From positions 2,232,001-2,296,000 of the forward strand of contig NZ_LR734808.1 in NCBI RefSeq assembly GCF_902506655.1: a stretch of DNA of 64,000 nt. The letters run 5' to 3'. The notes beneath the pieces are model-generated. The model had not been told where the DNA came from and did not search any database. It was given only the letters and a program-made list of their open reading frames with translations. A program made the translations under genes and the position numbers. Of the stretch, positions 406-24,450 are shown piece after piece (the stretch's first letter is position 1; every line of letters starts with the position of its first letter). Source of the DNA: Marinoscillum sp. 108 (lineage in GTDB: Bacteria; Bacteroidota; Bacteroidia; Cytophagales; Cyclobacteriaceae).

Positions 406-1410
406 TTAATTTCCTCCAGAAAGTATGATGAGCACAAGTCCGGAAATAAAGAGCAGGAACATTAAGAACAAAAGCATATTCACTGACCTGCCACCTCCTT
501 TAAATTCTTTCCATATAAATACTCCCCAAAGCGCCGCAACCATTGTAGCTCCTTGTCCGAGTCCATAGGATATTGCGGTACCTGCTTTACCGGCAGAAAG
601 AATACTTAAAATCATTCCAAGCCCCCAGATTAATCCACCGATTACACCTACCAGGTGTGTGGAGAAGCCCCCTTTAAAGTATTCCTTGTAGGTAACAGGC
701 TGTCCGACAAAGGGTCTTTTCATAATGATTGTATTGAAAAGGAAATTGCTGATGAAAATACCGATCGCAAAAATGAAGAAGGCAGTATAAGGCGTTGCCA
801 ATCCTGCCAATGGTGCTTCAAAACTATTGACATCCATAGCAGCAGCAACAAACCGATAGAAGAAAGACATGAGTACTCCTGCGATTAAGGCAAGCCAGAT
901 TCCCTTTGACGATGATTTTTTACCATCCTTTGTCATTTTTCCTGAAGCAATTCCATTCAAAATGATAGCAATCATGATCAATGCCACACCGATGAAAAGC
1001 ATAACAGGATCGCCTTTGGGTGCACTCACGTAATTCACTATCACCCCCAACACCAAGGCTATTCCGACACCCAGGGGAAATGCCACCGCCATGCCGGCTA
1101 TTGAAATGGATGCTGAAAGAAGAATATTGGAAGCATTGAAAATAACACCTCCTATAATTGCGCTCCAGATGGTGCTGCTACTCAGCTGTCCCAAGTCCTC
1201 AACAAATCCCCGACCTTGATCACCTGTGCTTCCCAATGTCAAACCAAAAAGAACGGATAGGATGAGGATTCCTATGACGTAATCCCAATAGAACAATTCA
1301 AAGCGCCAGGTCTTTGCCGCCAATTTCTGGGTATTGCCCCATGACCCCCAACACAGCATAGTGATGATGGTAAAGAACACTGCAATCGAGTAACTACTAA
1401 TAATGTACAT
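406..1410 (-). CDS. GRP/DMT-type sugar permease, probable ribose transporter (RusT-like)
   Basis: This 334-residue integral membrane protein has about ten hydrophobic segments and almost no soluble domain. It starts directly with a membrane segment containing CWGSWGNTQK, and later has GVALIMIAIILNG and AISYGLGQGATMVAALWGVFIWKEFKG, the pattern of GRP-type sugar permeases and the related ureide permeases in the DMT superfamily. It is the last gene of the nine-gene operon, 12 bases after the esterase gene. In the B. thetaiotaomicron rus locus the equivalent gene encodes the inner-membrane ribose permease. With a ribokinase at the other end of this operon, uptake of ribose or a small riboside is the best inference. 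Substrate is not shown by the sequence. Confidence 0.8.
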   Translation of the reverse strand: MYIISSYSIAVFFTIITMLCWGSWGNTQKLAAKTWRFELFYWDYVIGILILSVLFGLTLGSTGDQGRGFVEDLGQLSSSTIWSAIIGGVIFNASNILLSASISIAGMAVAFPLGVGIALVLGVIVNYVSAPKGDPVMLFIGVALIMIAIILNGIASGKMTKDGKKSSSKGIWLALIAGVLMSFFYRFVAAAMDVNSFEAPLAGLATPYTAFFIFAIGIFISNFLFNTIIMKRPFVGQPVTYKEYFKGGFSTHLVGVIGGLIWGLGMILSILSAGKAGTAISYGLGQGATMVAALWGVFIWKEFKGGGRSVNMLLFLMFLLFISGLVLIILSGGN

Positions 1411-1422
1411 AGGTCTATTTGG

Positions 1423-2973
1423 TTATCTGTGAATTTTTCTTTGAGTAAACCTTAATGCTTCAGAGAGCCCAACTAAATCATTGGCGTCCCTTCCTGTGCT
1501 CTCCCTGACACGATACTCGTGGTAGACGTCTTCCTCACGTAAAAAAACATGAGCACAGCCATTGGCTTGATAATTTGGATTATCCTCTGTTGTATTGATG
1601 AAATACCATGTTCGGTGAAGTGCTTTTTTATTCTTACTAAATGCTTCTTCCAGGGAGCTACAATCCAATGGCGCATCAAAAACAACACAGGATGTAAAGA
1701 CTTCCGGGTTAAGTGCATATTCCAGAGCTGTAGCTCCACCCTTGTTATAGCCTATCAGTGCCCGAAATCGATAGCCACTTCTTGCTCTGTAATTCCTTTC
1801 AATATCAGGTATGATTGTCTCAAGAAGCCCTGTCTCATCCTCATTGATAAAAGCTACTATCATTGGTGCCAAGTGGCCTGTCTCCATGTCATATTGGACT
1901 TTCTCAATAATGTCCTTCTTCTCTTGAGATTGGAAGTCACCAATAAAAAAAACCACCGGATACAAACGATTTGATATGCTGTAGTCATCAGGCAGTACAA
2001 TCTCATATTGTGTCTCCTTAATTATCCTTATATCAGCGTTCGTTGGAATAGTATCCTCTACCGCTCTTATATCACCTCTGTATTTCTTTCCATCGAAAGC
2101 ATCACTGATAAAGCGTAGGCCATTGGGCAATGCTTCCCGCCAATACGAAAATTCATGACCTCCGTCCCTAACTCTAAACTCATGTGGAAAATTGCGATCT
2201 CGAAGTAGAATATGCAACTCTTCATTGCTTCTGCAAAGCGTATATTCGTCATCACCATTATCAATGTAGAGTTTAAGGTCACTAAACTTTGTGAGGTTTG
2301 GCGCTTTGAAGATATGGAAGGGAGAATGTTGCTTATAGTAATCTGTGATGCGATTCTCTCCTGTTTCACTAACACCGCCAAAAAGTCTCCCCCATTGATC
2401 ATCCCATCCTGACGCGTCTTCTGTCATGTATTGTTGATCTGTGCGAACAGATATACTTAGCGGAACGCTAATAGTAAAAACCTCAGGATGTTTCAGCGGT
2501 AGGATGAGGGCACCGTACCCACCCATGGAGTAACCCATTGTTGCGCGATGATCCCTGTCTGGAATTGTTCTGTAGGTATTATCAATAAAAGGAATAAGCT
2601 CATCGATAAACATATCCTCGTACAGGAATGTACCCGCATAGTCATTCACATAATAATTTCGGAACCCTTGCGGCATCACATAAATCATCGGCTGAATATC
2701 TCCCTGCTTCACGGCTCCATCTGTATACTGATTGACACGACCGTATTCTAACCATGAAGACTCATCATCTCCCAAACCATGAAGTAAATAGACAACAGGA
2801 TATGATTTTTTGGTAGCGTGGTACTCCTCTGGAAGAATGATCGAATACTTGACGGCTTGTCCCAATATCTCGCTTTCGATCGAGAGCCCTTCGATAATTC
2901 GCAAGTTCTCCTGTGCAAAACCTATGGAAAAGTTTAGCAAAAGAACGATCAATATTGAATGCATCTTTTTCAT
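1423..2973 (-). CDS. Secreted esterase with a degenerate second esterase half (copy B)
   Basis: A 516-residue protein with a signal peptide (MKKMHSILIVLLLNFSIGFAQ). Residues about 25-300 form an alpha/beta-hydrolase of the putative esterase (EstD/Fes, PF00756-like) type: oxyanion region YLLHGLGDDESSW, nucleophile S149 in GYSMGG, an acid-region GDDE, and H273 in GGHEFSYW. Residues about 315-516 look like a second copy of the same fold, but the nucleophile position is N410 (GYNKGG) and the HEYRVR segment is not followed by the GGH motif. So the first half should be active and the second inactive, perhaps for binding. It begins one base after the stop of the paralogous gene upstream. The substrate is unknown; an acyl ester on a ribose-containing compound would fit the operon (inference). 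Confidence 0.82.
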   Translation of the reverse strand: MKKMHSILIVLLLNFSIGFAQENLRIIEGLSIESEILGQAVKYSIILPEEYHATKKSYPVVYLLHGLGDDESSWLEYGRVNQYTDGAVKQGDIQPMIYVMPQGFRNYYVNDYAGTFLYEDMFIDELIPFIDNTYRTIPDRDHRATMGYSMGGYGALILPLKHPEVFTISVPLSISVRTDQQYMTEDASGWDDQWGRLFGGVSETGENRITDYYKQHSPFHIFKAPNLTKFSDLKLYIDNGDDEYTLCRSNEELHILLRDRNFPHEFRVRDGGHEFSYWREALPNGLRFISDAFDGKKYRGDIRAVEDTIPTNADIRIIKETQYEIVLPDDYSISNRLYPVVFFIGDFQSQEKKDIIEKVQYDMETGHLAPMIVAFINEDETGLLETIIPDIERNYRARSGYRFRALIGYNKGGATALEYALNPEVFTSCVVFDAPLDCSSLEEAFSKNKKALHRTWYFINTTEDNPNYQANGCAHVFLREEDVYHEYRVRESTGRDANDLVGLSEALRFTQRKIHR

Positions 2974-2974
2974 A

Positions 2975-4579
2975 CTAATTCTTCAAACTGTTCCTCAACG
3001 AAGGAAAGGATTCACTTAAACCATTTAGAAACGACTGGAAGGACTCCGCTCCTTGCCTCACCCGATATTCATACCCAATATCTGTCTCTCTTATTTTCAC
3101 ATAGAAATGATGATAGCCTCTGTAGCTATCGCCATCATCCGAAATGTCCAGATAATAAAAAATGTCCGTCTGAGGATCAACGCCTTCTTCCTGTAGTTGG
3201 GCGTCAAATAAAAAGCATGAGCCAAATAGACTTGAGTTTTCTGCAGCAAGATTTGCGGCATGCAATCCCCCTAAAGCGTTTCCTAAAATGACCCGGCTGG
3301 CCCTATCTGTGAGTGCACGATATTGAGTATCTACATATGAGATGATCTCCGCTATGCGATCACTTTCAAGGCTTTCAGAAACCGGAACCTCAACCACCAT
3401 AGAATTTTTCAACGTGCCGGCTGTCATGCCATTTCGCAAAAGAGAAAAGATCTCCGTAACGTTCGATTCCCGCTGACCTTCTTCGTAATCGTGAATCACA
3501 TACACAACCGGGTAGTCCACAGTACTTGTCGTATAGTCCACGGGCTTCAATATATTGATCTCAACACCGGAGATTTCTACTGATTCAAAATCGCTGCTCG
3601 TGATACGCTCACCTATTGTGACAGGCTCAGGATTAGAAGGGTGCGGAATCCCCTGAACAGAATTGCTGATGAATTTTAGTGCCTCAGGATAGGATTTTTT
3701 CCAATAGTCGAATGAATGACCACCGCTACGTACCCTATACTCGTGGGGTATTTGATTGTCACGCATCAGGGCATGCAAGGCGTCATTTGTAATAGTCAAT
3801 GTCTCCTCATCATCACCACAGTCTATTAGAAATTTCAATCCGGCAAACTGATCCTTATTGGAAGACGAAAAAAAATGAAAGGGACTATGCTGCTTAAAAT
3901 AGTCGGTAAGCCTTGCCTCACCGCTCGCACCTTTTCCACCAAAAATAGTCCCCCATTGATAATCAAATACACCCTGTGGCTCGCTGATGTACTGTTCGTC
4001 TGTCCGAAATGACATACTTAATGGAACACCGACCGTGAAAATATCCGGATTCAATGCTGGAAGAATCAATGCTCCATAGCCACCCATCGAATAGCCCATT
4101 ACCGCTCTTGCTGTCTTATCCTGCTTTGTTCTGAACAGGCTATCGATTGTTGGCACCAACTCAGTGGTGATCATATCCATGTATGGATAGCTACCTGTGT
4201 ATCTGTTTACATAATAGGTATTATACCCAATTGGCATCACATAGATCATAGGGACTATTTGATCATTGTAGAGATCTGAATAGTACTTGATACTGCCACT
4301 GGTGTACCATGCTTTCTCATTATCTCCAAAGCCATGCAATAGGTAGACAACAGGATATTCGTCAGTGGATTCATTGTAATCCTCAGGAAGCAGCACTGCA
4401 TAATTAATGTCTACCTTAAAAATCTGGCTTGACATTTTTTGATTTTCAAGTAGTCTGGAAAACGGAATAGGCTCATCCACCATGATCGGTTCACCTTTGC
4501 AGCCGAAAAGGCTCAGCATCAAGATGAGTACCAATAGCATGAATGGCAGACTTGCGCTATATCGTTCCATTCTAGTCAT
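2975..4579 (-). CDS. Secreted esterase lipoprotein with a degenerate second half (copy A)
   Basis: A 534-residue paralogue of the next gene with the same architecture. The N-terminus is a lipoprotein signal (LILMLSLFGC, Cys at about 27), so it is probably membrane anchored while copy B is likely soluble. The first half carries YLLHGFGDNEKAW, nucleophile S164 in GYSMGG, CGDDEETL and H288 in GGHSFDYW, a full catalytic set for a PF00756-type esterase. The second half (about 335-534) keeps the fold pattern but has A435 in GNALGG in place of the nucleophile, and RQGAESF where GGHSF would be. Its start overlaps the preceding glycohydrolase gene by 8 bases, which supports translational coupling. The two genes probably arose by tandem duplication of an already two-domain ancestor. 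Confidence 0.82.
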   Translation of the reverse strand: MTRMERYSASLPFMLLVLILMLSLFGCKGEPIMVDEPIPFSRLLENQKMSSQIFKVDINYAVLLPEDYNESTDEYPVVYLLHGFGDNEKAWYTSGSIKYYSDLYNDQIVPMIYVMPIGYNTYYVNRYTGSYPYMDMITTELVPTIDSLFRTKQDKTARAVMGYSMGGYGALILPALNPDIFTVGVPLSMSFRTDEQYISEPQGVFDYQWGTIFGGKGASGEARLTDYFKQHSPFHFFSSSNKDQFAGLKFLIDCGDDEETLTITNDALHALMRDNQIPHEYRVRSGGHSFDYWKKSYPEALKFISNSVQGIPHPSNPEPVTIGERITSSDFESVEISGVEINILKPVDYTTSTVDYPVVYVIHDYEEGQRESNVTEIFSLLRNGMTAGTLKNSMVVEVPVSESLESDRIAEIISYVDTQYRALTDRASRVILGNALGGLHAANLAAENSSLFGSCFLFDAQLQEEGVDPQTDIFYYLDISDDGDSYRGYHHFYVKIRETDIGYEYRVRQGAESFQSFLNGLSESFPSLRNSLKN

Positions 4580-6158
4580 TCAATGCCACTTTTTTAGAGT
4601 TGAATGGTTTCGCCGGAGCATCTGCATAGATCACAATTGATTTCATGTATATGCTATAATCAGCATCCTTATTGACCCAGACTATCTCAACATGATGGGG
4701 GCCGTTTTCTAATAGATACTTATGGTAGATGTCGTACTTTCTCACAATGTAGTCGTAAGGCATTTTGACCTGATCCACTTTCTCTCCATCTATGTAGATA
4801 TCCAATAGCGCAACATAATCGCTGGAAGATCGAGCACAGAGGCTATTCACATTCCCAAGAACCACTATTCCGTTTCCGGTGAAATCGATATTGATATTTT
4901 TATCGGTGAAATGTTGACGCAGGTACCTCTCTTCACTCGGGTACATACCTTCAAATGATTGTTCTAATGGCACAGTCTCAGGCTGCTGAACTTTTATAAA
5001 AACACTGTCATCATCGACCTTGCCTTCGTTTTCTTCCACCAATTGAAGCGTGTGCTTGAAGGTTAAATCATACACCTCATTCAGTGTGATCTCCATATAT
5101 GGGAATTTCAAATCTTCCACCTCCTCCAATGCCGGTTTCCAATAGTCTGGAATGTTTTTATACCCCATCATCACTCCCAATATTCCTGCCGCTGTAGCAG
5201 GGTTGCAATCAGAATCCTGACCACACCGGGTAGAAATGTCCATTGTTTCAAAAAAATCCTTCTGTCCATACAGCAATCCAATCACCACATATGCAGCATT
5301 CAATCGCGCATCAATGTTGAAGGAATTGTATACCCCCTCTGGGCAACCCTTATCGGATGAATGATACTTTTCAACTTCAAACCAGGTCTCTTTCCAATCA
5401 TTTGGATATTGCTTGTGCCATTTGATTACATCAGCGATTGTTTTATAAAACATACTTTGTGAAGGAATGGTCTTAAGTGCTTCAGAAACGACAAAATCAA
5501 GATCATCAGAAGTGTATGCCAACGTGTACATGGCCGAGATAAACACCCCCCCATACCAACCATCACCATAATTCATGATATGCCCGATACGGTCACAAAA
5601 ATCAGATGCAGTATTGGTCATACCCGGAGCCATCATTCCGGCAAAATCTGCTTCTATTTGAAAATCAATATCATCGGCATGCGGGTTGTTCATCCAATGG
5701 CCAGAGGCCGGAGGCATGATGCCGTTCAAGATATTGTATCGAGCCGCCTGATTGGCGTGCCAAAGCTTGTAGTCCTCATTGGCAAACTCCACTGCGAATG
5801 AATCTGTGGGGGCATTGAGACCAACTTTCTCAAGGATATTAACAAAAGTCAAATCAAGGTATACGTCATCATATAATCCGGGATCCAATTCATAAGTTTC
5901 TTTGATATAGTGATCATGCCAAACTATGTTTTGATAGTCCTGAATCATGGTGCCCTTAAATCGAAATTCTGTAGGTCCGCCAAATGTCACTCCTATCGTT
6001 TGCCCGGCCCAACCGCCACGGATCTTGTCCTTTAAGTCCACTTTTGAAATGGCATATTCCTGAGAATAAAGTCCTTGATTATCATTTTGCTCCTTGCAGG
6101 CATTGATTGAAACAAGCAAAATCGCTACTAAACAGATATAGGATAAATTCACTCTCAT
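4572..6158 (-). CDS. ADP-ribosylglycohydrolase family lipoprotein (third copy)
   Basis: A 528-residue secreted lipoprotein (LVAILLVSINAC lipobox) with an ADP-ribosylglycohydrolase (ADPRGH, PF03747) core at about 40-370 and a beta-rich C-terminal region at about 400-520. Family signs are GGWAGQTIGVTFGGP near the start, the acidic YDDVYLD segment, the aromatic MAPGMTNTASDFCDR helix, and the late metal motif D315-S-D317-C318 in CGQDSDCNPATAAG. In characterised ADPRGH proteins this motif reads DxDT/S and the Thr/Ser helps bind Mg; here it is Cys. The family cleaves N- or O-glycosidic bonds to ribose, and RusGH of the B. thetaiotaomicron ribose locus belongs to it. It overlaps the gene before by 4 bases and is closely similar to it. 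Confidence 0.85.
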   Translation of the reverse strand: MRVNLSYICLVAILLVSINACKEQNDNQGLYSQEYAISKVDLKDKIRGGWAGQTIGVTFGGPTEFRFKGTMIQDYQNIVWHDHYIKETYELDPGLYDDVYLDLTFVNILEKVGLNAPTDSFAVEFANEDYKLWHANQAARYNILNGIMPPASGHWMNNPHADDIDFQIEADFAGMMAPGMTNTASDFCDRIGHIMNYGDGWYGGVFISAMYTLAYTSDDLDFVVSEALKTIPSQSMFYKTIADVIKWHKQYPNDWKETWFEVEKYHSSDKGCPEGVYNSFNIDARLNAAYVVIGLLYGQKDFFETMDISTRCGQDSDCNPATAAGILGVMMGYKNIPDYWKPALEEVEDLKFPYMEITLNEVYDLTFKHTLQLVEENEGKVDDDSVFIKVQQPETVPLEQSFEGMYPSEERYLRQHFTDKNINIDFTGNGIVVLGNVNSLCARSSSDYVALLDIYIDGEKVDQVKMPYDYIVRKYDIYHKYLLENGPHHVEIVWVNKDADYSIYMKSIVIYADAPAKPFNSKKVALND

Positions 6159-7813
6159 TGTATCGGTAGGTTACTTGATGGTTCGTTTTCTGAAAAGACA
6201 ATCAAATCATTAATCCTATATTCATACTTAGGATCATGATTCACCCATTTCAGTTTAAGGGTATGCTTACCTTCTGTCAATTGATATTTCCAAGCTGGCT
6301 CCAATCTGCGGGCAGAATTCATCATAGGGAGCTTCACTGTTTGATCCAGCTCACCATCTATGTACACTTCCATAATGGCAACATATGGATCATCTGGCTC
6401 GGCCAATCCAAATGACTCTGACCCGTAGGTTCTTTTAGAAACACGATCTATATATGCCACATCCACCTTAGATCGTTTGGCCATATTCCCATATAGTAAA
6501 TATCCATTACCAGTAAATTCGAAATTGATCTCATCCGTAAATGATTCGTCAATCTTATTGCGCTCGATGGGATAAGTGTTTTCGAAATTCTGTTCGAATG
6601 CCACCGGAATCGGTTTGGCCAGAGGTATTTTGACTTCACTTCCATCAATGGATCCTCCCGCCTTTTCAATCATTCCCAGAGCGTGCTTCATACTCCATCC
6701 GTAAGCCCTGTTGAGTGAAACTGTGGTGTTTTCAAAATCATCCATTTCGATTTCCTGAAGTGGCTTTAACCAAAAGTCCGGAATACGATCATAGCCAAGC
6801 ATCACACCCAATACGCCACCGACAGTTGCTGGATTGCAATCCGCATCTTGCCCACATCTGGCAGCAATATCTATTGACTTTGAAAAGTCACCATCTCCAT
6901 ACAGCATACCAATTGCCACGTATGCTGAATTAATCTTTGCTTCAATATTAAACCCTAAGAAGACTCCCTTTGGACAGCCGGTATCATGGTTCCATTTCTT
7001 TTGAACTTCAAACCATGTTTGCTTCCAATCATTCGGGAATTCTTTCTTCCATTTTATCACATCACTGATGCATTCATAAAATTCGGTCCCTTCAGGAATC
7101 ACCTTGATGGCATTCTCAACGATATAAGTGGGTTCATCTGAGATAAATGCAAGTGAGTACAAAGCGGAAACAAATACTCCTCCATACCAGCCATCTCCAC
7201 TGTTCATCACATGACCTACCCGATCCGCGATTTTTGTTGCTTCGTTGACCATACCCGGTGCCATCAAGCCGATGAAATCTGCTTCGATCTGAAAGTCTAT
7301 ATCGTCTGCATGAGGATTGTTTTTCCAATGACCTGAAGCAGGTGGCATGATGCCGTTCAGGATATTATAACGAGACGCCTGATTGGCATGAGCCAGGTGG
7401 TAGGCAGTATTGGACCAATGCCTGGCAATAGAATCTGCGGAAGCATCAAGACCATGAGTCTCAAATGCCTGTACAAAATTGAGATCGGTATAGATATCAT
7501 CGAAAAGTCCTGGTTTCTTATCCCACCAGTATTTCACATAGTGTTCATTCCAGGGAATGTTTTGAGCATCATGAATCATAGAACCATTGTATTTGAACTC
7601 TACAGGTGCACCATATACCACACCAATGGTCTGGCCTGCCCAACCACCTTTGATCTTGTTCTGTAGGTCATCTTTCGAAATGCTAAAATCACTCTCAGCC
7701 AGAACACCTTCCGACTTCACATCTGCTGGTGCAGTAGTGCTACCACAACCTAACAACACAAGTGCGGTGACCAGAGAAAATACTTTACTTATTGGATTCA
7801 ATATATAGTTCAT
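6155..7813 (-). CDS. ADP-ribosylglycohydrolase family lipoprotein (second copy)
   Basis: A 552-residue lipoprotein (TALVLLGC lipobox) with the same layout as its downstream neighbour. The core shows GGWAGQTIGVVYGAP, the FDDIYTD acidic segment, NILNGIMPPASGHW, the GSGDGWYGGVF-like loop (NSGDGWYGGVF), and D323-A-D325-C326 in CGQDADCNPATVGG. The usual DxDT/S metal motif therefore carries Cys in the last position, as in the next gene. The C-terminal 150 residues form a separate beta-rich region with GNGYLLYGN and a terminal jelly-roll-like stretch (GKHTLKLKWVNHDP), resembling carbohydrate-binding modules. It is preceded by 11 bases after the first glycohydrolase gene. Probable role: release of ribose from ribosides at the cell surface; exact substrate unknown. 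Confidence 0.85.
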   Translation of the reverse strand: MNYILNPISKVFSLVTALVLLGCGSTTAPADVKSEGVLAESDFSISKDDLQNKIKGGWAGQTIGVVYGAPVEFKYNGSMIHDAQNIPWNEHYVKYWWDKKPGLFDDIYTDLNFVQAFETHGLDASADSIARHWSNTAYHLAHANQASRYNILNGIMPPASGHWKNNPHADDIDFQIEADFIGLMAPGMVNEATKIADRVGHVMNSGDGWYGGVFVSALYSLAFISDEPTYIVENAIKVIPEGTEFYECISDVIKWKKEFPNDWKQTWFEVQKKWNHDTGCPKGVFLGFNIEAKINSAYVAIGMLYGDGDFSKSIDIAARCGQDADCNPATVGGVLGVMLGYDRIPDFWLKPLQEIEMDDFENTTVSLNRAYGWSMKHALGMIEKAGGSIDGSEVKIPLAKPIPVAFEQNFENTYPIERNKIDESFTDEINFEFTGNGYLLYGNMAKRSKVDVAYIDRVSKRTYGSESFGLAEPDDPYVAIMEVYIDGELDQTVKLPMMNSARRLEPAWKYQLTEGKHTLKLKWVNHDPKYEYRINDLIVFSENEPSSNLPIQ

Positions 7814-7824
7814 GCTACTGTTTT

Positions 7825-9831
7825 TTATTTTGATTTATAAACACCCAATTCGGCAATGGACGTAAAGCCCGATACATTTTTGGTGTACTTGTTCCAATGA
7901 TCCTGAATCATGGCATCACCAATGATCCGGACTGATTTAGTTTTTACTGGTTTGAAGGTGATGACATATTCCGCGAAATGGGGCTGGAAGAAGACAATAT
8001 CCGTATCCGGTAAACCCGGCTGAATGCTCGTCCGCTCTGCGCTTACCCACTTTCCCTCTTCATTCTTGTATTGGACATTCAGGGAGGTAAACCACCCACC
8101 AAACTCTTCCATTCCGCCAGTATTAAATACCAGCATATCTATCTCTTGATCTTCTTCCCACTCATATCCATAATAATCCACTTTGGGGATTTTTGCTTTG
8201 GCAGCCAAACTATAGAAAACTGATCCTGCACCATTCAATTTCCCATCGCGAATAATTTCCGGAGTATCAGAATACATTGAATTACCGAATGTTGTCCAAC
8301 ACGAGTCAAGGACGTCTCTATTCAATGTGTTCACATTTGCTAGTACCGATTTAGCTGAGTTCGCCAGGTTTTCATTGCGGACCAGGAGTTCAAAATCCTT
8401 CTTTAAATATTTCTTTCCATTATCCAATTGGATGGTGATCTTATATTTCCCGGGTATCTCAGGCACTCCTGTGAGTCGCCCTTTTTCGAAAGATGTACCC
8501 TTGGGCAAATCACCCTGGACCAATGTCCAGTTGTAATTTTTATTTGCCTCACTATAAAAGGTGAAGTCCACTGCTTTATTGACCTCTAAAACTGCAGCAG
8601 GGCCTATATAGAACTCCAGTGGCACATCAAAAGTGGCTTTGGTGTTAATAATCACTTTCTCCTGCCCTGCTTCTCCTGTCACCTTCCCACCTTTACCTTT
8701 CACCAGGTTTAAGGTCATAGCCAACATCCTGTCTATTTGATCTTCAATACTTGCATCTGGCAATTCATGACGCGTTATATTAATATAGGTGTCATTAAAA
8801 GGCTTTACCCAACCCTCTATTGGTAGGTATAGGTTTTCGGGAAGCGCATCAAAACCGTATACTATTCCTAAAAGACCGGCAACAGTTGCGGCCTGATTGT
8901 CCGCATCAAAACCCATGGCACAAGAGAGGTCAAGGGTTCGTTGAAAATCACCCTCTCCGTACAACATTGCTAATATTCCACATGCTCCATTGAGGTTTGC
9001 ATTCCAAATGGTTTTGGTGAGGTCAGGTTCATTCACATAATACTTTTCTGCCATCTCCTTCCAGGCATCTTGCCACTTGTTGGGGTACTTTTTGTGCAAT
9101 GCAATCATATCACGAATGGTTTGTGCATAGCGACCATCAGCAGGGAGCTCTTTTAACCCTATGTCTATCAGCTTGCGAATATCCTTTTCGAAAAAAGCCG
9201 CTGCGTACATTGCTCCGTAGTGAACTGTTGGCTCGGCACCCCAGTCATCACTAGTGATACGAGCAGCCCAATCAGATTTCTGCGCAGCATACTGCACCAT
9301 CCCCGGAGCGGTATATGCCCATATTTCATTGATTAGCTGAGGGTCAATTTGAAACCAGTGCGGATTGATATTCTTGTCCCCTGTGAATGGTGGGGTGTAA
9401 CCGAAATGCATTAGACCTAAGGCAGCACGATTGGCGAGCCAAACTCTGTCGCGAATATGGTACATCCAGGCTTCACGCATTTGCTCATACGTAGGTTCAT
9501 ACCCATACTTTTCCATATTGAGCAGATACATGTACTCTACATCGGTATCATCATCTGAAAAAGCTCCTTCGTATTTTCTAAGCTTGTCCAGGTTTTTGGT
9601 GTACCCATATGGCCATTTACCTTCGTCACCAGGTGCGCTCACGTACTTGTTTTCATGTGGAAGACCATAGATATTACCAATCATCTGACCTACCCAAGCT
9701 CCTGCTATCTTATTCCTCAGCTCTTTCACTGAAATACTTTTGGAGCCGCTTTGAGCTTCCGAAGTTTTCGCTGAAAACAGCAATGAGGTTGAAATCGCGA
9801 TTACTAATATTAAATTTCTATTCATCATCAA
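7825..9831 (-). CDS. Multidomain ADP-ribosylglycohydrolase family protein (first copy)
   Basis: The longest of the three, 668 residues. A signal peptide ending near KTSEAQS is followed by an ADPRGH core at about 35-360, with GAWVGQMIGNIYGLP, the acidic FSDDDTDVEY segment that best matches the family's first metal motif, and D309-A-D311-N312 in GFDADNQAATVAG (family consensus DxDT/S). Next comes an Ig-like putative-Ig (He_PIG type) module at about 410-490 (LPKGTSFEKGRLTGVPEIPGKY), and a C-terminal region with a galactose-binding-like look (VRIIGDAMIQDHWNKYT). It overlaps the SusD gene by 4 bases. It is more distant from the other two copies than they are from each other, so its substrate may differ. 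No lipobox Cys was seen, so it may be periplasmic or secreted. Confidence 0.85.
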   Translation of the reverse strand: MMMNRNLILVIAISTSLLFSAKTSEAQSGSKSISVKELRNKIAGAWVGQMIGNIYGLPHENKYVSAPGDEGKWPYGYTKNLDKLRKYEGAFSDDDTDVEYMYLLNMEKYGYEPTYEQMREAWMYHIRDRVWLANRAALGLMHFGYTPPFTGDKNINPHWFQIDPQLINEIWAYTAPGMVQYAAQKSDWAARITSDDWGAEPTVHYGAMYAAAFFEKDIRKLIDIGLKELPADGRYAQTIRDMIALHKKYPNKWQDAWKEMAEKYYVNEPDLTKTIWNANLNGACGILAMLYGEGDFQRTLDLSCAMGFDADNQAATVAGLLGIVYGFDALPENLYLPIEGWVKPFNDTYINITRHELPDASIEDQIDRMLAMTLNLVKGKGGKVTGEAGQEKVIINTKATFDVPLEFYIGPAAVLEVNKAVDFTFYSEANKNYNWTLVQGDLPKGTSFEKGRLTGVPEIPGKYKITIQLDNGKKYLKKDFELLVRNENLANSAKSVLANVNTLNRDVLDSCWTTFGNSMYSDTPEIIRDGKLNGAGSVFYSLAAKAKIPKVDYYGYEWEEDQEIDMLVFNTGGMEEFGGWFTSLNVQYKNEEGKWVSAERTSIQPGLPDTDIVFFQPHFAEYVITFKPVKTKSVRIIGDAMIQDHWNKYTKNVSGFTSIAELGVYKSK

Positions 9832-11351
9832 TCGGGGTTTTGAGTAAGATTTGGATTAGTGTTGATGGCACTTTGAGGAATAGGAAAAAGCTTTTTAGCC
9901 GTACCTGAAGCGGGTTTTTCCCACCAGGAATTTCCCCATACTCCAAATCGAATTTGATCTTGTCGTCTGTGACCTTCCCAGGCAAATTCCCTCCCTAGTT
10001 CGTCCAATAATTCAGAATCTGTGAGATCGCCTACGGTATAAGGAGTGAGTCCAGCGCGTGTTCTAATCAACTGAAGATCCGGATCATCAATGAATTCACC
10101 AGCTCTCCCCAGACGGTGTAGCGCTTCCAGTTTTGTATAAAGCACATCCGCGTATCTGAAGAGCACGAAATCATTTTCCATATCCACCACGTCATAGCTG
10201 AGCTCTTCCTGATATTCATACTTCGCACATCGTGCACCTTCCCACTCACCTCTCGAATTGTAATCTTGAATGGTAGGACTGTATATGAAGGGCTCTCCTC
10301 CGATTACAATCGGATCACCTTTGATGTCATTTTGCTGTCCAAACAGGAAAGAATTTCTACGAATATCATTCTCAGAATACTTCGTGAAAAAATCTGGCTG
10401 CAAGACGAATCCATCCCATGGCACACCTGCCAAGTTAAACGTAGCAGTACTTGCAGAATTCAATGTCAGGTTCTGCCAATAGAAATGCTCATCTGTAAGC
10501 TGTGGGTGGTATGGGATAACGAATATATTCTCCCGCGAACCCTCATTATGCACTTCGAAATTGGTAAAGTAATTGGGTTCAATTTGATATGCCCCCAATG
10601 CTATCACCTGATCGCAGGCCAATACGGCTTCTGCAAATTTATTTTGGCCGATCCATTCCTGAGCGTTCAAATACATTTTAGCTAAAAAGGTATAGGCCAT
10701 TCCTTTGGTAACCCTACCATAATACTCTGCCGTAGGCACATCTTGCACTGCATCTACATTGTCCAATATCTCCTGAACTATAAAATCAAATACGAACGCT
10801 CTGTCCTTTTGCTGTGGTGGATCTTTCTCACTGAAATCAATAGAGAATGGGATATTTCCCCAATAATCCATGGCCCAGTAGTAATAGAAAGCGCGCAGAA
10901 TTTTTATCTCAGCAAGCACTCGCTCCTTATTCTCAAACTCTATTGGATCAATTACCAAGAGAGTTTCGTTGCACGCTGTGATGCCTTCGAAAACCATATC
11001 CCATGATTTGGTCAATATTTTGTTTCCCGCTGTAGCACTGTTGAGTGTATGCTTTTGTATCTCCTCCCATCTACCCTGATCATACCACTCCCCATTATGC
11101 TTTTGTGGAATGACCATTTCATCAGAGGCATTCTGCCCGAGTGACCAGAGTCGCTGCTCCTCTGGATAGGGTTGAAGCTTTACGTATGCGCGTCCTGCAT
11201 AAGCAATAACATCCTTTTCAGAATTGAAGAAATCATCAACCGGTATTTCGGAATAAACGGATTCTGATAAGTCGAAACAAGAAACTGTAAGGAGACTTAA
11301 CAAGATGAATGATGTTATAGTAAGTGTATACTTTTTCATAATTCGATTCAT
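9828..11351 (-). CDS. susD: SusD/RagB family substrate-binding lipoprotein (RusD-like)
   Basis: A 507-residue outer-membrane lipoprotein: KYTLTITSFILLSLLTVSC lipobox, then the SusD-type start FDLSESVYSEIPVDDFF. Helical TPR-like segments such as LAEIKILRAFYYYWAMDYWGNIPF and TKGMAYTFLAKMYLNAQEW are typical of the RagB/SusD fold. The C-terminus has the family's ELGREFAWEGHRRQDQIRFG signature, followed by LFPIPQSAINTNPNLTQNPD. It lies 6 bases after the SusC gene, the usual pairing. SusD proteins cap the SusC barrel and bind the ligand for import. The pairing with ribokinase and ADPRGH genes makes a riboside or ribose the likely ligand (inference). Confidence 0.93.
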   Translation of the reverse strand: MNRIMKKYTLTITSFILLSLLTVSCFDLSESVYSEIPVDDFFNSEKDVIAYAGRAYVKLQPYPEEQRLWSLGQNASDEMVIPQKHNGEWYDQGRWEEIQKHTLNSATAGNKILTKSWDMVFEGITACNETLLVIDPIEFENKERVLAEIKILRAFYYYWAMDYWGNIPFSIDFSEKDPPQQKDRAFVFDFIVQEILDNVDAVQDVPTAEYYGRVTKGMAYTFLAKMYLNAQEWIGQNKFAEAVLACDQVIALGAYQIEPNYFTNFEVHNEGSRENIFVIPYHPQLTDEHFYWQNLTLNSASTATFNLAGVPWDGFVLQPDFFTKYSENDIRRNSFLFGQQNDIKGDPIVIGGEPFIYSPTIQDYNSRGEWEGARCAKYEYQEELSYDVVDMENDFVLFRYADVLYTKLEALHRLGRAGEFIDDPDLQLIRTRAGLTPYTVGDLTDSELLDELGREFAWEGHRRQDQIRFGVWGNSWWEKPASGTAKKLFPIPQSAINTNPNLTQNPD

Positions 11352-11357
11352 TAGAAA

Positions 11358-14306
11358 TTAAAAGGTCGCGTTTACTCCCAGAGTAAGAGTGGTCGTTCTT
11401 GGATAGTAGGATAATCGGTCAATGCCGGGCTCTAAGCCCCCAAGATTAACTTCAGGATCGATCCCCTTATAACCCGAAATCCAAAAAACATTTTGTGCCG
11501 ACCCTGATACACTTAACCTGGATATGTATTTTGAATTCAAGTCGAAACCGTATTGAAGCGTTACGTTGTCCAGCTTTAAGAAGGAAGCATCTTCAATATA
11601 CTTTGATGAATAGGTGACGTTTCTAATAAATTCCGGGTTCTCCAATTGTGTATGTACAATATTGCGTAATCCAATGGCGGTCCAGGATTCATAATATAAC
11701 CTGTTAGAATTCAACACTTTGCCTCCGATTCCCCCACGAAACGCAAGATTTAGATTCCAGTTTTTGTAGGTCAAAGCATTACTCCAGCCAAGCACCGCAA
11801 TGGGGTTAGCACTGCCGATCTTCTCCCACTTACTCTTATCTACCTCTCCAACAGGGTTTTGATTTTTAAATATGTCGTTACCATGCTCATCAACACCTAA
11901 CCAAACGGGTCCATAAAAAGTACCGAGTTCTTCCCCTTCCTTGATTCGTTGTGACCACACGCCTATGGTACCTCCCAGAAAAGCTGTTTCGTAGGTTGAT
12001 TGCGTAAACTCGCTATTTGAAATTTTGTCCAGGAAATTCTTGTTGTGACTGGCGGTGAAAGTAGAACTCCAACCAAAGTTGCCCCTTTTCATAAGCATAG
12101 CGTTCAAGGTAAGTTCTACCCCCCGATTACTAATGGTTCCAACATTGGTAAATAAGTATGGGTACAAATAAGGTGGGACTGGCACCTGAAACTCCCAAAG
12201 CAAGTCGCTGGTTTTTCTTAGGTAATATTCAACACTGCCGCTGAGCCGCCGCTCAAACACTGAAAAGTCAACACCAACATTTAACTCTTGCTTCTTCTCC
12301 CATTTCAGGTCAGGGTTTGGATTCTGCCCTGGACCGTATGAATTGATCCACTCCTGATTATAAAACAAACTACCCACGCGCTCCAACAAAATCAACGATC
12401 TGTAAGGACTGAAATCCTGATTACCTGTAACCCCATAACCCAACCTAAGTTTCAAATCATTTATCCAGCTAATGTCTTTGAAGAGTGATTCTTCACTCAG
12501 TCTCCAGCCTAAGCTCACAGCTGGGAATAACCCCCATTTGTTGTTATCTCCGAATTTAGATGAGCCCTCCCTTCTCAAGGAGATCGACGCAAGGTACTTT
12601 TCATCATAATTGTACATGAGTCTTCCGAAAAGAGCTATAAGCCTACTTGATTCCTGGTAAGAACCCATTTCGGACTTTCCTTCTCTAAAGAATGAGCCTG
12701 CAGAAATATTATTGTGGAGAAACACATCCGTATCGAAATTGTAATTTCCCACATAAGAGCTATTCATTTCAAACTCTTGAAAGGTATATCCGGCAACTAC
12801 CTGAAAATCATGATCGTTTACTTCCTTTTGGTAATTGAACATGCTTTCGTATAGCGTATTACTATTGCGGCCATTTGATATTTCTGCTTCCCCATTTATA
12901 CCGAGAATGGTAGGATAATATTTCGTCTTATAGGAATTCTCTTCCCATTCCGATTTTTGTGTTGAGATGAAGTTGCTCCAGGAAAGATCATCTGTGATCT
13001 CTAGTGTTGCTCTAAGGTTTAGGACTATGTCATTCGTTTGTCCCTCTCGCGTTCTCTCATTCAGCATGGCAACAGGGTTGTAGTAACCCAGGCCTTGTTT
13101 GAATGAATAGCCTCCTGTAGCCGGATCAGAATCATCATAGACAGGCTGGGTAGGATTCTGGATAAATGCCTGACTGAATAGGTCGTAGTTGGCTGGGCTA
13201 TATTTCCTTAAGTTGTTCGTGAAATTGAAATCCAACAGTAACCTATCATCAAATACCTTTTGCTTAATGTTAGTCTTAAGAAGAATCCTTTCCGAAAGAT
13301 TATCTCGCAATAATCCCTGATCAGTACTGTGCGTTAGGGACGTACGATGAGAAAAGCTTTCACTTCCTCCAGAGAGCGAAATATTGTGCTGGTAGCTGAC
13401 CGGAAGATCGTTGGTGATTTCATCAAACCAGTCTGTTTCGCTACCAAAAAGACTACCTGTTTTAGAAGGCTGATAAGTTTCTATGGCATGTTTAAATTCT
13501 TTGGCAGATAAGTTTCTGACACCTCTTGGTGCCACTTGCACCGAAACCTGACCTGAGTATTCCAGTACTTGCTGTCCCTTTTTTGCCGCTTTGGTAGTGA
13601 TGATGATAACACCATTTGTACCTCTTGTGCCGTAGATGGCTGCGGCCGAACCGTCTTTAAGTACATCAAATGATTCAACGTCCTGAAAATTAATGTTCTT
13701 CAAATCAGCTCCAATGACTCCATCTATAATAATGAGTGGTCCCTGGCCTGATGTAAGTGTACTCACTCCACGCAAAAGGATTTGGTAACCAGACATTGGG
13801 TCTGCACCATTCGGTTTGGTGATGGTCAAGCCTGCTACCTTCCCCTGAATTAAGCCCATTGGATCATTGAATCCTCCTCTATTAAAATCTTCAGACTTCA
13901 CAGTGGTGACCGCTCCGGTAATTTCCTTTTTAGTCGTTGTACCGTATCCAATTACCACAATTTCATCTAAGGCCTGAGTTGACACGCTCATTTGGATATC
14001 AATCACACTTCTATTATTCGCTGAAACTTCGACAGTCTCAAAGCCAATCGATGAAAAAACTAAAATCCCTTCTGATGGCCCAGATAAGGCATAGCCGCCA
14101 TCTATATCAGTAATTGTGCCCGTCTGTGTGCCTTTGACATACACGCTGACACCCGGGATTGAATTATTTGTTTCATCCGTAACTTTCCCCTTAATGATGA
14201 TCTCACCACTTGATTGGGCCATCACTTTAGTAATCGGGCAGGTCACAAATACTGCAAGAAACAGATAAACAAAAAGTATAGAATGTTGCCTAGAATGTGA
14301 TTTCAT
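11358..14306 (-). CDS. susC: SusC-type TonB-dependent outer-membrane transporter (RusC-like)
   Basis: A 982-residue TonB-linked outer membrane protein. After a signal peptide ending near KVMAQ comes a carboxypeptidase-regulatory-like domain (about 38-115: KGKVTDETNNSIPGVSVYVKG), the TonB-box-like DEIVVIGYGT, a plug domain containing GLIQGKVAGL, LLRGVSTL and the SusC hallmark SAAAIYGTRGTNGVIIITTK, then a long beta-barrel ending with an aromatic C-terminal residue (LGVNATF). Length and domain order are usual for SusC. It starts 24 bases after the ribokinase stop and is followed by its SusD partner. It probably imports the glycan or riboside captured by SusD. Confidence 0.94.
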   Translation of the reverse strand: MKSHSRQHSILFVYLFLAVFVTCPITKVMAQSSGEIIIKGKVTDETNNSIPGVSVYVKGTQTGTITDIDGGYALSGPSEGILVFSSIGFETVEVSANNRSVIDIQMSVSTQALDEIVVIGYGTTTKKEITGAVTTVKSEDFNRGGFNDPMGLIQGKVAGLTITKPNGADPMSGYQILLRGVSTLTSGQGPLIIIDGVIGADLKNINFQDVESFDVLKDGSAAAIYGTRGTNGVIIITTKAAKKGQQVLEYSGQVSVQVAPRGVRNLSAKEFKHAIETYQPSKTGSLFGSETDWFDEITNDLPVSYQHNISLSGGSESFSHRTSLTHSTDQGLLRDNLSERILLKTNIKQKVFDDRLLLDFNFTNNLRKYSPANYDLFSQAFIQNPTQPVYDDSDPATGGYSFKQGLGYYNPVAMLNERTREGQTNDIVLNLRATLEITDDLSWSNFISTQKSEWEENSYKTKYYPTILGINGEAEISNGRNSNTLYESMFNYQKEVNDHDFQVVAGYTFQEFEMNSSYVGNYNFDTDVFLHNNISAGSFFREGKSEMGSYQESSRLIALFGRLMYNYDEKYLASISLRREGSSKFGDNNKWGLFPAVSLGWRLSEESLFKDISWINDLKLRLGYGVTGNQDFSPYRSLILLERVGSLFYNQEWINSYGPGQNPNPDLKWEKKQELNVGVDFSVFERRLSGSVEYYLRKTSDLLWEFQVPVPPYLYPYLFTNVGTISNRGVELTLNAMLMKRGNFGWSSTFTASHNKNFLDKISNSEFTQSTYETAFLGGTIGVWSQRIKEGEELGTFYGPVWLGVDEHGNDIFKNQNPVGEVDKSKWEKIGSANPIAVLGWSNALTYKNWNLNLAFRGGIGGKVLNSNRLYYESWTAIGLRNIVHTQLENPEFIRNVTYSSKYIEDASFLKLDNVTLQYGFDLNSKYISRLSVSGSAQNVFWISGYKGIDPEVNLGGLEPGIDRLSYYPRTTTLTLGVNATF

Positions 14307-14330
14307 AGTCCTTCTTTTAGTATTACTATA

Positions 14331-15260
14331 TTATTTAGATAGCCCGTTTTCAATCAATTGTAATTCATTGCGGTACGGAATGGAAGACTGAGCACCCATA
14401 CGAGTTACAGTTATTGAGGACGCTTTTGAAGCTGTTCTTACAGCCTCCTGTATGGTTTTACCTTCAGAAAGGCCAACCACAAGTGTGCCGCTAAAGCAAT
14501 CACCAGCAGCAGTAGTGTCGATGGCATCCACTTTGGTGGCCTCCACCAAAGAATACTCATCGTTCTCCTTGATAAAAGCACCCATAGCACCCATGGTAAT
14601 CACCACATTGGGCACACCCTTGTTGCTAATTATATCTGCAGCCTGCTTAGCACTATTAAAGTCAAATACCTTGATTCCAGATAGGATTTCCGCCTCGGTT
14701 TCGTTTGGTGTCACAAGGAAGAGGCATTTGAGTAGTTTGTCTGACAGGGTTCTGGCTGGTGCCGGATTTAGGATTACAGGAGTGCCTTTTTTCCAGGCCA
14801 ATTCTGCTGCATACTCTACAGTCTCCATGGGAATCTCTAATTGCATTAAGACATAGTCCGCCGCATCTAATTCGTTTTTAGCCTTTTCAATATCGTCGGG
14901 AACCAAACTTCCATTTGCGCCTGAAGCTACCGCTATGCAATTCTCACCATGAGAATCCACCATAATCAGCGCCACCCCAGATGAGTTTTTAGCGTCGGAA
15001 AATATAAAGTCAGTGTTGATTCCCTCAGCGTTATAAAGCTCGATGGATTGCTTTCCAAACACATCGTTTCCAGTTTTAGAAACGAATGTGACTTTACCTC
15101 CCTGACGAGCCGCTGCCACAGCTTGATTGGCTCCCTTACCCCCTGCATTCATTAGGAAAGTTCCTCCGATGACCGTCTCTCCTGGTATAGGTAGTCGATC
15201 CGATTTTATTACCATGTCTGTATTGCAACTTCCGATAACAAGAATTTTTTTATTGCCCAT
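14331..15260 (-). CDS. rbsK: Ribokinase (PfkB family)
   Basis: A 309-residue cytoplasmic PfkB-family kinase without signal peptide. It shows the N-terminal signature region NAGGKGANQAVAAARQG (about 39-55), the nucleotide region LVTPNETEAEIL, and the C-terminal PfkB signature DTTAAGDCFSGTLVVGL with catalytic Asp in the AAGD motif. The GSCNTDMVIKSDRLPIPGETV start and GGKGANQA closely follow known ribokinases (D-ribose + ATP to ribose 5-phosphate). It is the first gene of the operon, which places sugar phosphorylation beside the SusCD importer, as in the B. thetaiotaomicron rus locus. ATG at 15260-15258 is preceded by an A/T-rich leader and no Shine-Dalgarno sequence. Deoxyribokinase activity is possible. 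Confidence 0.92.
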   Translation of the reverse strand: MGNKKILVIGSCNTDMVIKSDRLPIPGETVIGGTFLMNAGGKGANQAVAAARQGGKVTFVSKTGNDVFGKQSIELYNAEGINTDFIFSDAKNSSGVALIMVDSHGENCIAVASGANGSLVPDDIEKAKNELDAADYVLMQLEIPMETVEYAAELAWKKGTPVILNPAPARTLSDKLLKCLFLVTPNETEAEILSGIKVFDFNSAKQAADIISNKGVPNVVITMGAMGAFIKENDEYSLVEATKVDAIDTTAAGDCFSGTLVVGLSEGKTIQEAVRTASKASSITVTRMGAQSSIPYRNELQLIENGLSK

Positions 15261-24435: not shown

Positions 24436-24450
24436 TTTGAGTTTTAGGAA

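Follow-up and report, generated by a model that had tools for sequence, protein, structure and literature searches.

A probable variant of the rus locus with three ARH-fold enzymes and two esterases in Marinoscillum sp. 108

Introduction

The ribose systems of Bacteroidota are known chiefly from the gut, and nucleosides are the assumed source of the sugar. The rus locus of Bacteroides thetaiotaomicron, to which a 2020 paper by Glowacki is reportedly devoted, comprises the regulator BT2802 and BT2803-2809. As a stand-in for it we used Bacteroides faecis MAJ27 (L124/G407), which we take to be a close relative; here the order is RusR, two kinases, SusC, SusD, a DUF4978/GH35-like protein, a nucleoside hydrolase, and the permease. 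Elsewhere, rus loci may include genes of the ADP-ribosylglycohydrolase (ARH) family, as do those of B. faecichinchillae (kinase, kinase, permease, nucleoside hydrolase, ARH) and of genome G347 (ribokinase, ARH, nucleoside hydrolase, permease).

In this work, we analyzed a stretch of 64,000 nucleotides from Marinoscillum sp. 108 (hereafter, the window). It harbors a locus that is best read as a new RUS variant: three ARH-fold enzymes are combined with a pair of esterases, a nucleoside hydrolase is absent, and citrate genes often lie near loci of this kind. Such a variant points to an unrecognised ribose-bearing nutrient of mostly uncultured Bacteroidota, for the finding of which the ARH/esterase cassette represents a defined enzyme set.

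Materials and Methods

Genes were called as six-frame ORFs, with overlaps resolved by length; this procedure concealed the permease of locus L139 and parts of L164. The permease neighborhoods are those of the best 80 of at least 576 permease relatives and, since only these were kept, the counts over the 80 loci hold for the closest relatives. Downstream genes are out of view at four of the loci with the ARH/esterase cassette: L121, L144, and L164 stop shortly after the permease, and L135 has its permease ahead of SusC. Nucleoside hydrolase relatives were counted at an identity of at least 30% to one such protein; citrate genes were searched for by blastp, tblastn, and profiles.

Results and Discussion

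Organization of the locus

The sequence-only reading had proposed a nine-gene operon on the minus strand with gaps of 24 bases or less, and its ORFs, spacings, and gene families all check out. The nine ORFs are intact and run from 15260 to 406, the spacing in the 5' to 3' direction being 24, 6, -4 (overlap), 11, -4, -8 (overlaps), 1, and 12 bases. The locus includes the following genes:

20061..21587, plus strand, divergent: BT2802-family (RusR family) protein, putative regulator (NF058569.1, 695.9 bits, cut-off 550)
18404..19906, minus strand: DASS (SLC13-type) anion symporter (TIGR00785, 260.7 bits, cut-off 198.6)
17155..18366, minus strand: fusion of CitD (acyl carrier) and CitE (lyase beta subunit type) (TIGR01608, TIGR01588)
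15586..17148, minus strand: CitF, citrate lyase alpha subunit type (PF04223, 460.4 bits; TIGR01584, 501.3 bits, cut-off 501.45)
14331..15260, minus strand: ribokinase (TIGR02152, 368.8 bits, cut-off 299.65; NF008353 above cut-off)
11358..14306, minus strand: SusC-type outer-membrane receptor (TIGR04056, 724.9 bits, cut-off 368.25)
9828..11351, minus strand: SusD-type lipoprotein (PF07980, 78.9 bits, cut-off 23.1; PF14322)
7825..9831, minus strand: ARH-A, ADP-ribosylglycohydrolase-family protein with C-terminal beta domains (PF03747, 108.2 bits, cut-off 26.2; model and fold search)
6155..7813, minus strand: ARH-B, ADP-ribosylglycohydrolase-family protein with a C-terminal beta domain (PF03747, 130.9 bits, cut-off 26.2)
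4572..6158, minus strand: ARH-C, ADP-ribosylglycohydrolase-family protein (PF03747, 125.6 bits, cut-off 26.2)
2975..4579, minus strand: esterase 1, with a feruloyl-esterase-like domain followed by a second one (PF00756, 130.2 bits, cut-off 22)
1423..2973, minus strand: esterase 2, same architecture as esterase 1 (PF00756, 137.7 bits, cut-off 22)
406..1410, minus strand: RusT-type permease (PF07168, 72.9 bits, cut-off 27; PF06800, 34.2 bits, cut-off 26.3)
1..321, minus strand: DUF4595-like gene, partial (PF15283, 30.8 bits, cut-off 34.2)

The DUF4595-like gene extends beyond the window start (266 aa in full); its relatives lie directly 3' of the permease in 12 other loci, and it is a probable tenth member of the operon. 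This gene, the RusR-family gene, and the DASS-CitDE-CitF block had been overlooked in the sequence-only reading. Secretion of the operon enzymes was read by eye from signal peptides and lipoboxes in the translations.

Comparison with known rus loci

The likeness to rus proposed earlier is borne out: the locus encodes a ribokinase, a permease of RusT type, SusC and SusD, and a protein of the BT2802 family. The B. faecis locus shares a BT2802-type protein (46%), the ribokinase (59%), SusC (27%), the SusD family, and the permease (71%); the latter is 69-72% identical to those of four Bacteroides rus loci (69-71% for B. faecichinchillae and B. faecis). The B. faecis locus differs in its two kinases, its DUF4978/GH35-like protein, and its nucleoside hydrolase; in the 21 kb retrieved, neither an ARH nor an esterase relative was found. 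The ARH genes had been equated with RusGH; this finds no support, since the B. faecis counterpart is the DUF4978/GH35-like protein, whereas the genes of the window belong to PF03747. The reported lack of a nucleoside hydrolase extends to the whole genome, where no PF01156 gene was found.

The loci with a single ARH gene (B. faecichinchillae L117, Limnovirga soli L168, and G347) share the ribokinase (58-61% identity), the permease (59-69%), and an ARH gene (53-54% to ARH-C); none has the esterase cassette, and a nucleoside hydrolase occurs in L117 and G347. The whole cassette, with its order kept and identities of 45-73%, is found in Lentimicrobium, HGW-Bacteroidetes-1, and a Draconibacterium MAG (L139, L120, and L181), with a ribokinase upstream (an end piece only in L181) and a DUF4595-like gene downstream. 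Unlike the locus under study, these three carry citrate-type genes downstream of the permease, and in L139 and L120 a RusR relative immediately adjoins the ribokinase.

Distribution of the ARH/esterase cassette

The recurrence of the gene order in other genomes, which had been suggested as a check, was confirmed: the cassette is present in 13 of the 80 permease loci (the best 80 of at least 576). Its proteins are 38-73% identical to those of the window, except for one end piece of 116 aa (32%). Since the identical order recurs in other genomes, it is not due to chance. In 10 of 12 cassette genomes examined, a ribokinase is located upstream at the distance of one SusC gene, on what seems to be the same contig (in one of them as an end piece only). 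Three fragments in which an esterase adjoins the permease (L119, L130, and L166) were counted among the 67 non-cassette loci; 55 of these 67, drawn from the same best 80 of at least 576, show at least 2.5 kb downstream of the permease.

No nucleoside hydrolase is in view at the 13 cassette loci, and one is present in 23 of the 67 others (best 80 of at least 576). Thus, the nucleoside hydrolase is variable within the rus kind, and the loci with the ARH/esterase cassette make up a conserved subtype.

The three ARH-family proteins

No PF03747 gene other than the three of the operon was found in the genome (5.2 Mb). The proteins (528-668 aa) have extra C-terminal domains. The listed start of ARH-A is TTG, the codons after it being ATG; in ARH-B and ARH-C, a lipobox is visible by eye. 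The predicted models of ARH-A and ARH-B (pLDDT 86.1 for the latter) adopt the ARH fold, with a target TM of up to 0.75 in the fold search. The identity to the solved ARH-fold enzymes listed is 11-18%, and for this reason a ribosidase activity is assumed here.

Two motifs of ARH-A (SDDDTD and GFDxDN) are conserved in 13 of 13 aligned sequences, and DDxYxD and GxDxD of ARH-B and ARH-C in 12 of 12 and 13 of 13, respectively. As to TDDT and DxDT, presumably the metal-binding Asp motifs of the ARH family, a TDDT-like run is nearly kept in ARH-A and is absent from ARH-B and ARH-C, whose Asp residues are invariant; DxDT is kept in none of the three. The operon had been said to hold two more copies of one ARH gene. 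Three PF03747 genes are indeed present, but the term is inexact: ARH-B and ARH-C form separate clades (95/93 and 99/100), also distinct from the ARH genes that stand alone in other rus loci, and ARH-A is far from both. The ARH-B/C clade is not confined to ribose loci, because three (L066, L069, and L071) of eight further genomes with close relatives are without an adjacent ribokinase; in L069, a GH26 gene lies where the ribokinase would be.

The ADP-ribosylhydrolases ARH3, ARH1, DraG, and 6dre share the fold with ARH-A and ARH-B and, possibly, the paired Asp motifs; they differ from the present proteins, which appear secreted (signal peptide by eye) and carry extra C-terminal domains. A main function as ADP-ribosyl-protein hydrolases was dropped, since the proteins look secreted and sit in a SusCD operon. 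ARH3-type enzymes cleave poly(ADP-ribose). This, together with the fold of the models, would be consistent with uptake of ADP-ribose, poly(ADP-ribose), or fragments of modified proteins. We consider such a diet improbable: no phosphatase, pyrophosphatase, or nucleobase gene is among the families found in the operon, the genome search for a nucleoside hydrolase was negative, the C-terminal beta domains of ARH-A resemble carbohydrate-binding modules in the fold search, and the two esterases would be left unexplained. ARH-A, ARH-B, and ARH-C are candidates for extracellular, glycan-active ARH-fold enzymes, none of which, to our knowledge, has been described so far.

Esterases and proposed route

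The pair of esterases noticed previously corresponds to two PF00756 genes, but the catalytic serine is found only in the first half of each protein, where 25 of 25 aligned sequences have it; the second domain is without it. The nearest PDB chain to esterase 2 is the ferulic acid esterase 7xrt (E 8.2e-47), and the specificity of either enzyme cannot be read from its sequence.

An acylated ribose source is our best guess for the locus, which likely represents a distinct, conserved RUS subtype. As for the substrate, the order of steps, the cell location, and the regulation, we infer that SusC/SusD would import a riboside, or an oligomer of ribosides, that bears acyl groups. The esterases, read as secreted, would remove these groups, and the three ARH-fold enzymes, which differ in lineage, would cleave the ribosyl linkages, the ARH family being active on alpha-ribosidic bonds; the RusT-type permease would then import free ribose, which the ribokinase would convert to ribose 5-phosphate.

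Citrate genes beside the cassette

DASS, the CitD-CitE fusion, and CitF sit between the RusR-family gene and the ribokinase. The solved relatives of DASS are mostly di/tricarboxylate carriers, and SLC13A1 and a phosphate transporter match too. The alpha, beta, and acyl-carrier subunits of citrate lyase are recognisable, all below the curated cut-offs; the CitD part matches TIGR01608 at 8-84 (59.2 bits, cut-off 63.5) and the CitE part TIGR01588 at 109-389 (261.2 bits, cut-off 443.4). The SDC serine of the fusion is kept in 13 of 13 aligned sequences.

Among the best 80 of at least 576 permease relatives, 8 of the 13 cassette loci have genes for a citrate-type transporter or a lyase downstream of the permease; positives that are query members match by construction, because the queries came from the window and the cassette loci. 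None of the 67 others has such genes there; a citrate gene of another family would escape, because Pfam was run on chosen neighbors alone. The genes are DASS (L120, L139, L150, and L187), CitMHS (L122, L185, and L186), and CitDE plus CitF (L122 and L181); the CitMHS of L186 is a TIGR00784 citrate:proton symporter (544.1 bits, cut-off 259.7).

Two readings differ in which acid the esterases release. This adjacency hints at a food molecule carrying both ribose and an organic acid; on one reading the acyl group, by inference, is citrate or a close hydroxy-acid, which the esterases would release, DASS/CitMHS import, and CitF/CitDE split, in a single pathway. The position of the block and the contrast between the two sets of loci argue for it, and the four distinct citrate-gene arrangements, that of the window included, speak against a single inherited accident. 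We regard this pathway as possible, though doubtful, since CitG (PF01874) was not found in the genome, the lyase subunits score below their cut-offs, and a literature search found no ribose-citrate compound. Moreover, of 12 cassette genomes, 6 have CitF on a different contig from the cassette, and in 4 it was not found; cassette locus L136 shows no citrate gene in the 4.8 kb in view; at some loci, visual inspection showed terminator-like hairpins that separate DUF4595 from the transporter; and the non-cassette locus L159 has a distant DASS relative (93.5 bits, left uncounted) some 9 kb upstream of the permease.

According to the other reading, citrate genes and cassette are co-located, having moved jointly or never parted, only because the donors meet both foods, and the esterases would remove acetyl or feruloyl groups, as the ferulic acid esterase match of esterase 2 suggests. 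The CitF of the window clusters with that of cassette genomes, linked or unlinked (100/99), and no CitF was found in the other sampled genomes of its class; both are expected if one donor group gave the block. In addition, the 8 of 13 (best 80 of at least 576) are not eight independent events, because the cassette loci may share descent. Against it stand the 67 non-cassette loci of the same sample, many from Bacteroidales by title, in which no citrate genes were found downstream, with at least 2.5 kb in view at 55 of them. We give this reading a chance slightly short of even. The uptake of an acylated riboside, preferred above, leaves room for either acid.

The RusR-family gene and regulation

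The BT2802-family gene lies 4.8 kb from the ribokinase, with three genes in between, and its product would be expected to control the locus. Its closest relatives adjoin the ribokinases of rus-type loci in other genomes: within the 30 loci retrieved, that of the window included, the four top relatives outside this genome are next to a ribokinase that is accompanied by a permease gene or an ARH gene, and the remaining 26 (again with that of the window) show no ribokinase, permease, or ARH gene within about 1.5 kb.

The regions upstream of the ribokinase and of DASS gave no common motif, ungapped matches being no better than in shuffles: of 60 dinucleotide shuffles, 33, 29, and 6 reached the best match at widths of 18, 22, and 26. 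Co-regulation of the two genes is thus unsupported. The fullest form of the citrate proposal would have as substrate a riboside or ribosyl glycan that carries citrate, or some hydroxy-acid like it, in ester linkage, an undescribed bacterial food whose parts would go to the ribokinase and to DASS/CitMHS plus CitF-CitDE under one RusR-type control; we hold it to be rather unlikely.

The 508-aa RusR-family gene was also considered as a stray TPR protein, Pfam giving only sub-cut-off TPR matches; this was rejected, as NCBIfam identifies the BT2802 family. Relatives of this family are present in 79 of 395 genomes of the phylum, and in 7 of the 12 cassette genomes examined a RusR relative is divergent next to the ribokinase.

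Structure and extent of the operon

From 15260 down to 406, the window harbors a minus-strand run of nine closely spaced ORFs, and family profile searches confirmed the protein families that the sequence-only reading had assigned to them. The set of nine genes thus stands, but not the size given to the unit, since it extends further on both sides, as follows.

406-15260 (-): ribokinase, SusC, SusD, three ADP-ribosylglycohydrolase-family (ARH) proteins (ARH-A, ARH-B, ARH-C), esterases 1 and 2, RusT-type permease
L083:9521-10321 (locus reaching beyond the window start): DUF4595-like gene 3' of the permease; Pfam 30.8 bits, below the cut-off of 34.2
15586-17148 (-): CitF, upstream of the ribokinase, same strand as the operon
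17155-18366 (-): CitD-CitE fusion, likewise
18404-19906 (-): DASS symporter, likewise
20061-21587 (+): 508-aa gene, divergent, beyond DASS; NCBIfam "BT2802 family ribose utilization protein", 695.9 bits, cut-off 550
Next to the unit, 21663-26908 (-): L-fucose block, i.e., lactate-dehydrogenase-like, mutarotase-like (below cut-off), FucP, L-fucose dehydrogenase, fuconolactonase-like and didehydro-deoxy-rhamnonate-hydrolase-like genes

DUF4595-like relatives lie directly 3' of the permease in 12 other loci. Probing the whole genome retrieved no PF03747 genes other than the three ARH genes of the operon and no PF01156 nucleoside hydrolase, whose absence from the operon had been noted before. The L-fucose catabolic genes adjoin the 508-aa gene, and the region downstream of the operon, directly before the window (L083:142-8947), encodes a CBM4_9 protein that ends in a Por sorting tail, a hybrid two-component regulator of 1393 aa and a GH20 enzyme.

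Relationship with known ribose-utilisation loci

RusR, judging from the NCBIfam family name, is presumably BT2802. Relatives of the 508-aa gene occur in 79 of 395 genomes of the phylum, and neighborhoods were fetched for 30 loci, our own included. The four best relatives outside our genome (134-355 bits) adjoin a ribokinase and a permease or ARH gene; the remaining 26, among them our own, have no ribokinase, permease or ARH gene within about 1.5 kb, in our case because the citrate genes intervene between the 508-aa gene and the ribokinase. The genome also has a second gene distantly related (23%) to the 508-aa one (G000:C1:3628881-3630392), and the phylum has many genes with 20-27% identity to it, none of them beside a ribokinase in the loci fetched.

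An alignment scan of the named genomes confirmed at least 576 permease relatives, the best 80 of which were analysed. These 80 include the rus loci of Bacteroides faecis, B. faecichinchillae, B. faecalis and B. oleiciplenus, whose ribokinases and permeases are 59-66% and 69-72% identical to those of the window; their 508-aa relatives share 44-48% identity, and the two tested both exceed the BT2802-family cut-off. From these three shared genes, and in agreement with the earlier label "rus-like", the locus is, on sequence grounds, of the RUS kind.

PMC12596196 describes the Rus PUL as BT2803-2809 and names RusR. The comparison with B. thetaiotaomicron was made through the B. faecis sequence, where RusR is followed by seven genes, the count expected of BT2803-2809, in the order kinase-kinase-SusC-SusD-DUF4978-nucleoside hydrolase-permease. 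As its glycosidase, this stand-in has a DUF4978/GH35-like protein instead of an ARH enzyme, so the proposed equation of the ARH genes with RusGH fails in B. faecis.

A conserved ARH/esterase subtype

The kinase-SusCD-ARH-esterase order, for which a genome search had been suggested, is not peculiar to the window: 13 of the best 80 (of at least 576) permease loci carry the ARH/esterase cassette, nine of them in the same order SusD-A-B-C-esterase 1-esterase 2-permease. According to these data, the locus is real and belongs to the known RUS type, of which it is a conserved and uncommon version. By title, the hosts are mostly Bacteroidales-type MAGs, including Lentimicrobium, Paludibacter and Draconibacterium.

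Loci with the window's order: L120, L121, L122, L139 (permease from a scan match, not a called ORF), L144, L150, L181, L186, L187
Other cassette loci: L135 (ribokinase-permease precede SusC), L136 (without esterase 2), L164 (several genes masked by the ORF caller), L185 (begins at a contig end inside ARH-B)

Nucleoside hydrolase genes, counted by ≥30% identity to a single protein of this type, are seen in none of these 13 loci versus 23 of the other 67.

Whole-genome ribokinase searches covered 12 of the 13 cassette genomes (L164 left out). The enzyme is 51-71% identical in 11; the twelfth, G403, has a best full-length match of 45% and a 64% end piece at the contig end of the cassette. Counting this piece, the ribokinase lies one SusC-length 5' of SusD on the same contig in 10 of 12, as judged from coordinates and contig extents (coordinates alone for G399), SusC itself being read in L136 (partial), L238 and L239. 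The exceptions are G398 (carrying L135), with a different order, and G404, with the ribokinase on a separate contig. A RusR relative is divergent next to the ribokinase in seven of the 12 (one truncated by a contig end), and in G401 and G405 each gene sits at a contig end; whole-genome searches gave no RusR match in G398 and G399 and only a weak fragment in G403.

ARH enzymes and esterases

ARH-B (12 rows, 95/93) and ARH-C (13 rows, 99/100) form separate clades in a phylogeny of 48 ARH proteins, and single ARH genes from other rus-type loci fall outside both. The copies apparently go back to an old duplication and were passed on as a set. The Asp motifs are invariant inside each ARH group. AlphaFold models of ARH-A (pLDDT 80.7, 14 sequences) and ARH-B (86.1, 27 sequences) match the ARH-fold structures ARH3, DraG and Thermus 2yzw at 11-18% identity; the highest target TM was 0.70 for ARH-A and 0.75 for ARH-B. 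By E-value, the top matches of ARH-A, a CBM among them, are sialidases and other multidomain enzymes, which in our reading come via its C-terminal domains.

In eight genomes with close ARH-B/C relatives, these are adjoined by a ribokinase in five (L064, L065, L067, L068, L070; in L067 a SusCD pair and permease sit between). Three loci (L066, L069, L071) lack it there, so this clade may also act outside ribose loci. In a different layout, ARH genes of L067, L069 and L071 adjoin FGE-sulfatase-domain proteins. ARH-A relatives (44%) lie next to a 683-688-aa gene in L072:9176-13110 and L073:7479-11443; the L072 neighbor is a GH13 alpha-amylase-family protein, which hints at possible glycan substrates for enzymes of the ARH-A type.

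Both esterases consist of two alpha/beta-hydrolase-like halves. Among 25 aligned proteins (13 + 12, the window's included; cassette loci and L130; ≥38% identity, ≥80% length), the first half always keeps G-F/Y-S-M-G-G and a His. At the matching column of the second half Ser is found in none (one has a gap), L120 esterase 1 and L187 esterase 2 having a Ser one position further on; since this Ser is not kept, the second half is probably a binding or structural domain.

Citrate-type genes and the possible substrate

The best reading is that the substrate is an acylated riboside, which retains the decorated ribose source of the sequence-only reading without its ARH-RusGH equation; that the acyl group is citrate would be the most daring interpretation compatible with the evidence. 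In the 80 permease loci, searched by blastp, tblastn and profiles, citrate-type genes follow the permease in eight of 13 cassette loci (DASS in L120, L139, L150, L187; CitMHS in L122, L185, L186; CitDE and CitF in L122, L181) versus none of the 67 others, 55 of which have at least 2.5 kb visible 3'; owing to the common ancestry of the cassette loci, these counts do not represent independent events. TIGR00784 identifies the L186 CitMHS as a citrate:proton symporter (544.1, cut-off 259.7). Four of the five cassette loci without such genes had the downstream region out of view; the fifth, L136, is genuinely negative across 4.8 kb.

That the citrate genes and the cassette merely lie together has a probability just short of even. 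In the window, the citrate-type genes are on the opposite, ribokinase side compared with the other cassette loci, and the regions upstream of DASS and ribokinase share no motif above chance. CitG (PF01874) was not found in the genome and the lyase subunits score from just below to well below curated cut-offs, both counting against a working citrate lyase; the carrier SDC serine, which we take to be the prosthetic-group attachment residue, is kept in 13 of 13 aligned sequences. Two observations weaken the case somewhat: the three loci in which ARH relatives have no adjacent ribokinase, and L159, one of the 67, where a gene related to DASS lies about 9 kb 5' of the permease.

CitF is present in eight of 12 cassette genomes (on the cassette contig in two), in neither of two Bacteroides rus genomes and in 38 of the 395 phylum-sample genomes, no other of which is marked as our class or nearer. 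In a tree without the G403 split copy and the G401 second copy, our CitF groups with seven cassette-genome proteins (100/99), outside of which fall 14 background sequences and that of L076. ARH-A has no match in three sampled species of the genus and, among 147 other genomes of the family, a near full-length relative (42%) in G483 alone; cassette MAGs hold relatives at 51-70%. This distribution and the CitF tree would fit the RUS genes and the citrate genes having been acquired laterally from a single group of donors.

In L076, L077 and L079, three or four ARH genes cluster with genes for ABC transport, sugar-binding ones or others. No CitF was seen beside the clusters of L077 and L079; in L076, CitDE and CitF adjoin the ARH genes, possibly an independent version of the ARH-citrate link.
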